Shown here: piece by piece, positions 14,470 through 45,206 of the stretch
Layout: each line of letters starts with the position of its first letter
How positions within the stretch are numbered: the stretch's first letter is position 1
Assembly: GCA_017656305.1 (NCBI GenBank)
Contig: JACDOG010000016.1
Coordinates: forward strand, 1-49,252
Length of the DNA: 49,252 bases
DNA from: Thermoanaerobacteraceae bacterium
Lineage (GTDB): Bacteria > Bacillota > JADQBR01
Direction: 5' to 3'
Position numbers and translations under genes: made by a program
Notes under the pieces: model-generated
Seen by the model: the letters and a program-made list of their open reading frames with translations, nothing else
Databases searched by the model: none
What the model was told of the DNA's origin: nothing

Positions 14470-15813
14470 TCACAATAAGCGGTTCATAAACAGGGTGGCT
14501 GTGGAGAAATAAATGGTAAGACCAAGGATGTCGTTTATGGTGGTAATGAACGGCCCCGAGGCCACGGCGGGATCAATGTTTAGTAAATCCAGTATCATTG
14601 GTATAACTGCGCCTGCCAGGGTGGCCACAAGCAAGGTAGCCCACAGGGAAAAACCGATGACAAAACCCAAATAGGGATTGCTCTGCCACAGGTATGCCAC
14701 GCCGGCAATCAATAATCCGCAGGTAGTGCCAATAATTAAGCCCGTTGAAGCCTCACGCCGAATGATACGAAATACGTCTTGCTTGGTAAACTTTCCTAAA
14801 GCCAAACCCCGAACTACTACCGCCAGTGACTGGGTACCGGTATTGCCGGCCATATCGGCAATCAGGGGAATAAATGCTGCCAGAATTACAACTTGCTGCA
14901 GGGTGTTTTCAAAATAAGATATGATGTTTCCGGACAACAGGTCCACGATTAGCAGCAGCAGCAACCAGGGCAGCCGGCGCTTGGCGGACTGTATTGCCGA
15001 TACCTCCAGTTCATCCATGTTATGAATTGCCGACAACTGGCCGATATCTTCCGTTGCCTCTTCTTTTAGGACGTCCAGCACGTCATCCACAGTGACAATT
15101 CCCAGCAGTACATTGTTCTCATCTACCACCGGGACGGCCAAAAAGTCATATTTATCAATGATATACGCCACTTCTTCCTGGTCCATGGTGACCGGTACCG
15201 ACACTACGTTTTCATACATGATGTTCTCAATTTTTTCTTCCGGGTCGGCCACGATTAAATCTCTTAAAGAAAGTACTCCCACCAGGCGGTTTTTTGCATC
15301 GGTGACGTATATATAGTAGATGGTTTCCGCGTCGGGAGCAATCAAGCGCAGCTTTTTTACCGTTTCCCCGGCAGTAAAGTACTTTTTCATTGCTACGTAT
15401 TCCGTGGTCATAATGCCCCCTGCGGTTTCTTCCGGGTAGGTGAGCAGCTTGCGCAATTCCGATGCCTCGGTGGTACCCATCAAATCCAGGTACTTTTCCG
15501 CCCGCTCTTTTTTGAGATTGCCCAGCAAGTCTGCGGCGTCGTCTGAAGACATTTCGTTTAACAACTGTGATACCTGCCTGTTATCTAGCTCTTCAATCAG
15601 TACCAGCTGCTCGTCCGGTTCCAGTTCCTGAAAGATCTGCGCTAGTGCTGCGGGGTCAAGGAGACTGTAGATAACCTTTCGTTCTTCTGGCTCCAGTTCC
15701 AGCAGCAGTCGGCTTTGGTCAAAGGGCTGGATTTCTTCCAACAATTCTGCCAGTTGTTCCTTATCGTTGCTTTCAATGGCTTTGCGAAAAATGTTAATGG
15801 TTTCTGCTGTCAC
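14470..15813 (-). CDS. mgtE: Magnesium transporter MgtE
   Basis: A 447-residue Mg2+ channel/transporter. The N-terminal superhelical MgtE_N domain (about 25-130) is followed by two CBS domains (about 135-195 and 200-255) that bind Mg2+ and close the pore when internal Mg2+ is high. A linker helix and five membrane segments (about 285-447) follow, with the pore signature PLIADMAGNTGTQS. The length is standard. It starts at GTG 15813 behind AAAGGAG. Expression should be shut off by high Mg2+ through the M-box aptamer upstream (about 16063-16222) and its terminator. Between these lie a 31-codon ORF and a long hairpin overlapping the mgtE ribosome-binding site, described separately. Confidence 0.95.
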   Translation of the reverse strand: MTAETINIFRKAIESNDKEQLAELLEEIQPFDQSRLLLELEPEERKVIYSLLDPAALAQIFQELEPDEQLVLIEELDNRQVSQLLNEMSSDDAADLLGNLKKERAEKYLDLMGTTEASELRKLLTYPEETAGGIMTTEYVAMKKYFTAGETVKKLRLIAPDAETIYYIYVTDAKNRLVGVLSLRDLIVADPEEKIENIMYENVVSVPVTMDQEEVAYIIDKYDFLAVPVVDENNVLLGIVTVDDVLDVLKEEATEDIGQLSAIHNMDELEVSAIQSAKRRLPWLLLLLIVDLLSGNIISYFENTLQQVVILAAFIPLIADMAGNTGTQSLAVVVRGLALGKFTKQDVFRIIRREASTGLIIGTTCGLLIAGVAYLWQSNPYLGFVIGFSLWATLLVATLAGAVIPMILDLLNIDPAVASGPFITTINDILGLTIYFSTATLFMNRLL

Positions 15814-15819
15814 CGCGTT

Positions 15820-15915
15820 TCACTCCTTTCTCGGAAGATGATAAAAATGGAAAGCACTATTTACTTGTGTTACGTGATGCACGCGTATATAATAATCGCC
15901 CTCTTCACTTTCCAT
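15820..15915 (-). CDS. Putative mgtE leader peptide (31 aa)
   Basis: ATG 15915-15913 to TGA 15822-15820, preceded by a perfect GGGAGGTGAT. The product starts MESEEGDYYIRVHHV, with four acidic residues in the first seven, and its last codons overlap the AAAGGAG used by mgtE. It lies between the riboswitch terminator and mgtE, so it is made only from read-through transcripts. The entire frame is within a 29-bp hairpin whose arms contain this ORF's ribosome-binding site and part of that of mgtE. A regulatory role like that of enterobacterial MgtL is inferred, not shown. Confidence 0.6.
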   Translation of the reverse strand: MESEEGDYYIRVHHVTQVNSAFHFYHLPRKE

Positions 15916-15936
15916 CTTTATCACCTCCCGAGAAAG
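15826..15936 (-). promoter_or_regulatory. Long mgtE-leader hairpin sequestering ribosome-binding sites
   Basis: Arms 15826-15854 and 15908-15936 are complementary over 29 positions. The three non-identical positions all become G-U wobbles in the minus-strand transcript and A-C mismatches in the other, so the structure is suited to RNA in the mgtE direction. The loop is 53 nt. The upstream arm includes the GGGAGGTGAT of the leader ORF, and the downstream arm reaches into the AAAGGAG before mgtE. Confidence 0.7.
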
Positions 15937-15943
15937 AAGCATC

Positions 15944-15972
15944 AAAAAAGCCTTTCACAACAAGTGAAAGGC
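15944..15972 (-). terminator. Riboswitch-controlled terminator of the M-box leader
   Basis: GCCTTTCAC and GTGAAAGGC form a perfect 9-bp stem with a 5-base loop, followed by TTTTTT on the minus strand. It lies about 90 nt beyond the aptamer, the expected place for the expression platform. Confidence 0.88.
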
Positions 15973-15986
15973 GGTAATGGGCACAC

Positions 15987-16040
15987 TAATGCATGTATCC
16001 AGGTAATACATGCTAATGCATGTATCCAGGTAATACATGC
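15987..16040. repeat. Tandem duplication of a 27-bp palindromic unit
   Basis: Two exact 27-bp copies (15987-16013 and 16014-16040). Each contains GCATGTAT and ATACATGC, a perfect 8-bp hairpin with a 7-base loop. The pair lies between the M-box aptamer and its terminator on the minus strand. Confidence 0.9.
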
Positions 16041-16062
16041 AAGGACACAGCACACCCAAACG

Positions 16063-16222
16063 CACTTCACTTGTAGAGCTTTGACACTGTATGGCGTAGG
16101 GTTACCCCAGCTCCATTAGGTAAAGCCTTAATCCGGCAGTACCTGTTTTACCCATTGGCGTCTCTCGACGTTTCCGGGCAGAAGCCTGTTTCCATACAGG
16201 AGCCTCGCCTAACGAAGTATTG
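16063..16222 (-). ncRNA. M-box (ykoK) magnesium riboswitch aptamer
   Basis: The minus strand shows the conserved M-box series in order: CTTCGTTAGGCGAGGCTCC, TGTATGGAAACAGGCT, TGCCCGGAAACG, GACGCCAATGGGT, then GGAGCTGGGG, ACGCCATACAGTG and AAGCTCTAC near the 3' end. These match the B. subtilis mgtE (ykoK) leader closely. Mg2+ binding compacts the aptamer and favours the downstream terminator, switching mgtE off. A promoter lies 30 bases upstream. Confidence 0.95.
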
Positions 16223-16252
16223 CGTTTGGCAGATATGTCGTTTTCCCGTTTA

Positions 16253-44997: not shown

Positions 44998-45192
44998 ATG
45001 GTTAACTGGTGGGAAAATTTCATGTCTTGCTGCTCATGTGTTTTTTCAAAGCGCCTGGACCGCACATGGTGCGGTCGACGAGGAAGGGGTTTATCGAATT
45101 TTCGGCGGATGCCCCTCGGCCCGAACCAGGTCGTTACAGGCATTACAAAACTCAGGAGCAATCCTGAGGACAAAAGGTGTCTGGCTGGTTAA
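44998..45192 (+). CDS. Possible leader ORF overlapping the glmS ribozyme (64 codons)
   Basis: ATG 44998 lies 4 bases after AGAGGGGGTGAG, one of the strongest ribosome-binding sites in the window. The frame runs MVNWWENFMSCCSCVFSKRL and then straight through the ribozyme core to 45192. Only the first 17-18 codons precede the cleavage site at 45050/45051. The later part is RNA-constrained and Arg-rich, so probably not selected as protein. It could be a regulatory leader whose translation alters ribozyme folding. Confidence 0.35.
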   Translation: MVNWWENFMSCCSCVFSKRLDRTWCGRRGRGLSNFRRMPLGPNQVVTGITKLRSNPEDKRCLAG

Positions 45193-45206
45193 CGTGTTGC
45201 TAAAGG
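45045..45206 (+). ncRNA. glmS ribozyme (glucosamine-6-phosphate-responsive)
   Basis: The conserved ribozyme core is present: GCGCCTGGACCGCAC directly after the cleavage site (A45050/G45051), then GTGCGGTCGACGAGG, GGGGTTTATCGAATTTTCGG, CGGATGCCCCTCGG, a GAGCAATCC-type hairpin and GGTTAACG near the 3' end. Glucosamine 6-phosphate acts as coenzyme for self-cleavage; the cleaved mRNA is degraded, so GlmS synthesis falls when its product is abundant. It sits between glmM and glmS, the usual place in Firmicutes. Confidence 0.95.

Follow-up and report, generated by a model that had tools for sequence, protein, structure and literature searches.

Does the short open reading frame (ORF) that lies between a Mg2+ riboswitch and the transporter gene mgtE in this genome act as a second, ribosome-based sensor of Mg2+? 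The question was raised by an initial annotation of the window, i.e., the whole stretch of 49,252 nucleotides analyzed here, which pointed to a likeness with MgtL of E. coli. MgtL begins with MEPDP; when Mg2+ is low, ribosomes drop off on EPDP, which turns on the transporter (PMC11282234). In the window, mgtE and its leader lie on the minus strand. The gene (14470–15813, with a GTG start at 15813) encodes a Mg2+ transporter with MgtE_N, CBS and MgtE domains, as assigned with Pfam. Upstream of it, a full-length M-box (ykoK) Mg2+ riboswitch aptamer is found at 16059–16223 (RF00380, 160.3 bits, cut-off 44), followed by an intrinsic terminator at 15944–15972, in which the hairpin GCCTTTCAC-TTGTT-GTGAAAGGC (15972–15950; found by script, -13.7 kcal/mol) precedes the U-tract TTTTTT (15949–15944). 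The 3′ end of the M-box (16074–16061) and the 5′ side of the terminator (15973–15960) form the inverted repeat I2 (15960–16074; 14 nt, 86% complementary), and this pairing would act as the usual antiterminator. Aptamer and expression platform, that is, terminator and antiterminator with mgtE downstream, are canonical for RF00380, a family described as placing mgtE under Mg2+ control. Inserted between M-box and terminator are two identical 27-nt tandem units (GCATGTAT..ATACATGC; direct repeat D1, 15986–16039), each of which is a small hairpin. Elsewhere in the same genome (G000), a second MgtE, 48% identical, is encoded on contig C15 (4605–5912); this copy seems to have no M-box, as the genome search gave one M-box only. 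The window also contains a glmS ribozyme (45039–45193, 117.7 bits).

Beyond the terminator, the Shine-Dalgarno (SD) sequence GGGAGGTGAT (15920–15929) introduces a reading frame of 31 codons (MESEEGDYYIRVHHVTQVNSAFHFYHLPRKE; 15915–15820) that carries no annotation. Its presence and its acidic start, MESEEGD, are as the initial annotation had described them. Codons 2–7 (ESEEGD, 15895–15912) are the proposed ribosome-destabilizing stretch, by analogy with the EPDP of MgtL (PMC11282234). The stop codon of the leader ORF, TGA (15822–15820), adjoins the mgtE SD, AAAGGAG (15823–15829), and lies 6 nt 5′ of the mgtE GTG.

The ORF had also been reported to lie inside a 29-bp hairpin. It is indeed located within the arms of an inverted repeat (I1) that is likewise recovered in folds, but these arms form 32 bp, and the last 3 nt of the ORF fall just beyond them. 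The 5′ arm (15939–15908) contains the SD and start of the leader ORF and the 3′ arm (15854–15823) contains its end and the mgtE SD; the earlier description had placed part of the mgtE site there. In the mgtE-sense RNA the arms form 28 Watson-Crick and 4 G-U pairs, and in the antisense RNA all 4 of the G-U positions are mismatches; the earlier argument from strand therefore stands, with four non-identical positions instead of three. Relative to dinucleotide shuffles, the folding of a 156-nt and of a 135-nt piece of the leader yields z-scores of -6.7 and -8.9, respectively, and for either piece 0 of 200 shuffles were as stable. A mobile or repeated element as the source of the hairpin DNA is ruled out by its single copy in the genome.

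In the outer 12 bp of this hairpin, the sequence 5′ of the leader ORF's own SD hides the mgtE SD. A folding model with ribosomes placed on the RNA gives an accessibility of the mgtE SD of 0.001 when no ribosome is present and 0.28 when a ribosome is initiating on the leader ORF; with a ribosome at codon 5 the site stays shut (0.001), and with one inside the 3′ arm it reaches 0.55. The modeling suggests that, at this locus, occupancy of the first codons by a ribosome is not enough to free the mgtE site, and that occupancy of the 3′ arm is.

Conservation in close relatives, to which the initial annotation had tied its proposal, was assessed in two other genomes of the family, G001 and G002; a search for relatives by MgtE protein in genome contigs gave one distant match. 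Both genomes lack the 27-nt tandem units in their leaders. G001 keeps the M-box, the terminator, the hairpin and an acidic ORF (MESDDDYLKK...), all in the same order; the lack of conservation that had been named as refuting the proposal was thus not observed. Its hairpin is a weaker form (z = -2.4): among the 34 pairs compared, 19 are unchanged, 6 are changed on one side and 1 on both sides, and 8 are broken. The G001 leader ORF extends 47 nt into mgtE, in a different frame. In G002, M-box and terminator are present and the leader ORF is missing; mgtE starts directly at GGTGGTAAAAATGGAA, which resembles the ORF start in G001 (G002 leader L007, 1430–1520), as if the body of the ORF had been deleted. 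The G002 leader is a natural single-layer version that may be used for comparison.

To place this leader in a wider context, 398 genomes of the phylum were searched, 134 of which contain M-boxes, and 110 leaders were inspected. Of these leaders, 60, a set partly chosen by eye for acidic starts, have a short ORF that combines a strong SD with an acidic or Asp-Pro start (for example MDDPDADL, MDPDPGSS, MDAGPS or MEDPYPG). They come from 26 families; the latter is the safer figure, because the genomes are related and the leader counts therefore not independent. Nineteen leaders are too short for an ORF (main gene less than 75 nt from the aptamer), and 29 others have room and no recognizable ORF of the acidic kind. 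When ORFs are chosen by their SD alone, which is unbiased, 47 of the 90 M-box leaders with room contain an ATG ORF with an SD of 6 or more nt. These ORFs have Asp or Glu at codon 2 in 40 of 47 cases (10% for ordinary genes at these loci), a mean of 2.0 acidic residues at positions 2–7 (0.70 in the background genes), and Pro within positions 2–8 in 32 of 47 cases (background, 20%). Among leaders of other riboswitches, an ORF chosen in the same way occurs in 1 of 16 for SAM, where it is not acidic, and in 0 of 7 for Mn.

The main genes behind these M-boxes include those for MgtE, CorA, PRC-barrel/MgtE_N proteins, P-type ATPases and ABC permeases, according to Pfam. In 56 of the 60 acidic-ORF leaders a terminator-like hairpin lies 5′ of the ORF, and transcription of the ORF is therefore expected only when the riboswitch lets the polymerase pass. 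As in the window, many of the leader ORFs stop shortly 5′ of the main gene. In another group (L057, L058, L072, L082, L106 and L122) there is little structure, and the ORF and the start of the gene share about 60 nt; in such leaders, ribosomes that finish the ORF should interfere with the gene, and ribosomes that drop off early should leave it free.

Several variants of this arrangement were also noted. M-boxes directly 5′ of genes for ABC-type inner-membrane permeases (L047, L036, L098, L070 and similar leaders, in families f14, f22, f30 and f91; BPD_transp_1 by Pfam for L047, and by sequence likeness for the others) suggest an ABC-type importer of Mg2+ or of another Mg2+-linked substrate. 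Leaders of P-type ATPase-like genes (L038, L043, L068, L071 and L093) have a distinct, longer version of the ORF (MDGGGSSK..., MDDGGNS..., MDTGSSTD...), with 150–265 nt of further structured RNA between ORF and gene. In L191 (G688), a strong SD behind the M-box is followed in frame by IDEDSPNTF, with ATA instead of ATG; this is either a rare start codon or a decayed leader ORF.

To decide whether the shared start reflects amino acids or nucleotides, the acidic residue at codon 2 is weak evidence, because ATGGA alone would give Asp or Glu. Across families, however, different synonymous codons are used for Asp/Glu (GAC/GAT/GAA) and for Pro (CCT/CCC/CCA/CCG). Among 49 non-redundant ORFs, a set partly chosen by eye, acidic residues per six codons number 1.18 in frame 0 versus 0.51 and 0.22 in the other frames, and Pro residues 1.04 versus 0.37 and 0.55. 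The pattern [DE]x0-2P is present in 38 of the 49; shuffles give 3.5 (maximum, 10). What the peptides of different families have in common is limited to the first few residues. On this comparison, selection across families appears to act on amino acids and not on nucleotides alone.

The likeness to MgtL extends from the 26 surveyed families to the Bacillus family, in which 52 of 55 leaders contain the ORF (e.g., MDSPHSSQSEEVPIYY, MDHPDSRHIE or MEIPRSG). In Bacillus velezensis (NZ_CP083716.1) it begins MDSPHSSMSEEVPIYSQ..., lies between the M-box terminator and mgtE, 18 nt from the latter, and is unannotated in the record. The first codons of the Bacillus ORFs are nearly invariant in nucleotides too, so that selection on amino acids and on nucleotides is inseparable there; the pN/pS of the ORF frame, 0.7–0.86, is not clearly below that of the other frames. 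The N-terminus, the SD and two of the pairing segments described below (2 and 3) are fixed, and the C-terminus drifts, with frameshifting indels. In a more distant group, leaders from genomes reached through a Candidatus Izimaplasma record have ORFs in the same place (MDSSHYPL, MDSGSSYRP and MNRARDSVP...DPDAPP), the last of which shows the acid-Pro combination without the ATGGA nucleotide start. Among clostridial and fusobacterial mgtE records from a plasmid collection, the M-box is absent from L197 and L198, and L199 has one but no acidic ORF. Given the enrichment in frame 0, the synonymous variation, the fixed start in Bacillus and the drifting C-terminus, it would appear that what matters is the RNA pairing and how the peptide begins, and not the remainder of the peptide.

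The RNA pairing follows a common plan in many leaders, with four segments: the first codons of the ORF (segment 1, GGACGACCC), a mimic of the SD late in the ORF (segment 2, GGGAGGGTCG), an anti-SD (segment 3, CGTCCCTCC) and the SD of the gene (segment 4). A 2:3 helix that uses the same strand of segment 3 as the 3:4 helix is found in 20 of 45 non-redundant leaders, compared with 6.8 ± 2.4 in shuffles (maximum, 17). We used this shuffle test in place of a partner-swap test of the 2:3 helices (p = 0.0002), which is biased by the choice of the best helix. The mean energy of the 2:3 helix is -10.4, versus -5.0 ± 0.4 in shuffles, and that of the 3:4 helix -5.5, versus -3.6 ± 0.35. Segment 1 pairs with the same segment 2 in 10 leaders (2.9 expected; maximum, 7). 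In the 20 leaders with competing hairpins, the modeled accessibility of the SD is 0.24 without a block and 0.44 with a ribosome on the first codons (p = 0.0006); a block at a random interior position gives no rise (0.25). This trend is clear only for leaders in which the 2:3 helix competes with 3:4; when all leaders are folded at equilibrium with ribosome blocks, without selection of the class, there is no clear trend. A ribosome at the end of the ORF also gives an accessibility of 0.40 in the same 20 leaders, and folding alone therefore does not prove the sign of control.

Taken together, these observations lead us to consider it probable that the leader ORF of the window is a translation-based Mg2+ sensor stacked behind the transcriptional M-box, a reading that draws on sequence comparison, folding models and the analogy with MgtL. 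As is established for the riboswitch family, low Mg2+ would cause the M-box to antiterminate, so that RNA past the terminator is made. The comparison of leaders shows what comes first in this RNA: an ORF with strong initiation signals and, like MgtL, acidic or Asp-Pro codons at its beginning. If the work on E. coli and Salmonella applies, ribosomes would pause on or fall off the acidic nascent chain at low Mg2+, and would translate the ORF in full when Mg2+ is ample. In the four-segment leaders, consistent with their folding statistics, segment 1 would be masked by ribosomes that stay on the first codons or keep falling off there; segments 2 and 3 could then pair, leaving the transporter SD free. 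Otherwise, 1:2 and 3:4 would form and the SD would be hidden. In the overlapping leaders, where the ORF runs over the transporter start, it would be complete translation that blocks the transporter.

The window and G001 differ from this class in that one long hairpin holds both SDs; the competing four-segment design is absent from the window. Here, a ribosome on the 5′ arm would delay the closure of the hairpin during transcription, and low Mg2+ would again mean on. We favor this reading for the window, though not strongly, because of the class to which the leader belongs. The opposite possibility, namely that complete translation opens the hairpin and couples the ORF to mgtE, fits the modeled accessibilities as well or better. 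The direction of control at this locus is thus the least certain step of the explanation. Further points that count against a second sensor are the 8 broken pairs of the G001 hairpin, with a single pair altered on both sides, the loss of the ORF from G002, the 29 surveyed leaders with room and the 19 short ones that have no such ORF, and the lack of a clear trend when all leaders are folded together.

Such coupling could also be all that there is. If ribosomes simply melt the hairpin and reinitiate at mgtE, Mg2+ would be sensed by the M-box alone and the acidic start would be incidental or a matter of tuning. The position of the ORF stop at the mgtE SD in the window, the modeled release of this SD, which is greatest from inside the 3′ arm, and the many other ORFs that end just 5′ of the gene all agree with this possibility. 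We nevertheless judge it unlikely, for it leaves unexplained why acidic or Asp-Pro starts turn up again and again, in 26 families and exclusively behind M-boxes, why some ORFs overlap the gene start (L057, L058, L072, L106), and why the SD of competing-hairpin leaders opens when the first codons are blocked. The enrichment of Pro along with Asp raises another scenario, in which what the ORF detects is stress on translation at Asp-Pro or acidic motifs (through EF-P, ABC-F proteins such as YfmR or YkpA, or charged Asp and Pro tRNAs) and Mg2+ only indirectly. Both Asp-Pro and acidic runs stall the ribosomes of B. subtilis, where the Asp-Pro stalls are a target of EF-P and YfmR and charged motifs have been linked to YkpA (PMC11381351); in E. 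coli, EttA modulates MgtL (PMC11282234). Yet the ORFs go with Mg2+ transporters and M-boxes, and acidic leaders without Pro near the start exist, including those of the window and G001. We consider this scenario quite improbable as a replacement for Mg2+ sensing, with which it is in any case compatible, because Mg2+ acts via the same ribosome instability.

The strong signals for translation could also mean that the peptide is functional in trans, e.g., as a small partner of MgtE or CorA, and a role as a peptide has been suggested for Rv1805A, the uORF behind the mycobacterial M-box (PMC12810186). The Bacillus ORFs, with their drifting C-terminus, frameshifting indels and lack of a clear protein-level constraint in pN/pS, and the restriction of the common residues to the first few across families, make this very improbable. 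As for a chance ORF inside an inserted palindrome, the ORF is short and the palindrome near-perfect; but the hairpin is single-copy, its G-U pairs exist in the sense RNA only, and conservation across the class refutes chance for the class, so that its probability is negligible.

Turning to known systems, the leader ORFs described here share with MgtL, which precedes mgtA in E. coli and Salmonella, a short frame with an acidic and Pro-containing start before a Mg2+ transporter. MgtL operates through Rho-dependent termination and has no M-box, whereas the ORFs described here lie beyond the intrinsic terminator of an M-box and appear to act on the transporter SD; the likeness, as far as it was compared, is that of the motif. 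The closest parallel in stem-loop logic to the competing-hairpin leaders is Salmonella mgtQ, located between mgtC and mgtB, in which acidic codons and the alternation of stem-loops 1:2/3:4 with 2:3 hide or free a downstream SD (PMC8092293). However, mgtQ has 8 codons, lies inside an operon and has no riboswitch, and the coupling in the window is by a single long hairpin. In Mycobacterium, e.g., in M. tuberculosis, an M-box is likewise followed by a conserved and well-translated short ORF, uORF2 (Rv1805A), whose conserved N-terminus includes Pro7 (PMC12810186). This case differs in that it concerns Actinobacteria and a translational platform plus Rho, and the same paper does not link it to ribosome destabilization. 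No leader ORF is mentioned in the available text of a 2025 review dealing with the B. subtilis mgtE riboswitch (PMC12288461), and for acidic leader ORFs behind the M-boxes of Bacillota we found no precedent in the open-access literature, subscription papers being mostly outside our coverage. We therefore regard them, provisionally, as new to the literature.

For the phylum as a whole, we put at somewhat better than even the chance that many M-box leaders across Bacillota, including that of the textbook Bacillus mgtE, hold a second, translational Mg2+ sensor, namely an acidic or Asp-Pro leader ORF that makes ribosomes unstable at low Mg2+ and frees the transporter SD, such that two unrelated sensors, an RNA-based and a ribosome-based one, operate in series on one mRNA. 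In the papers found, destabilization of ribosomes by acidic nascent chains is documented as a Mg2+ sensor for enterobacteria only. If the same device does stand behind M-boxes across Bacillota, it would be either ancient or repeatedly evolved; the best-studied metal riboswitch would so far have been only half read, and reporters that follow M-box control at the level of transcription would have missed a translational layer. The proposed second sensor is directly testable in B. subtilis.
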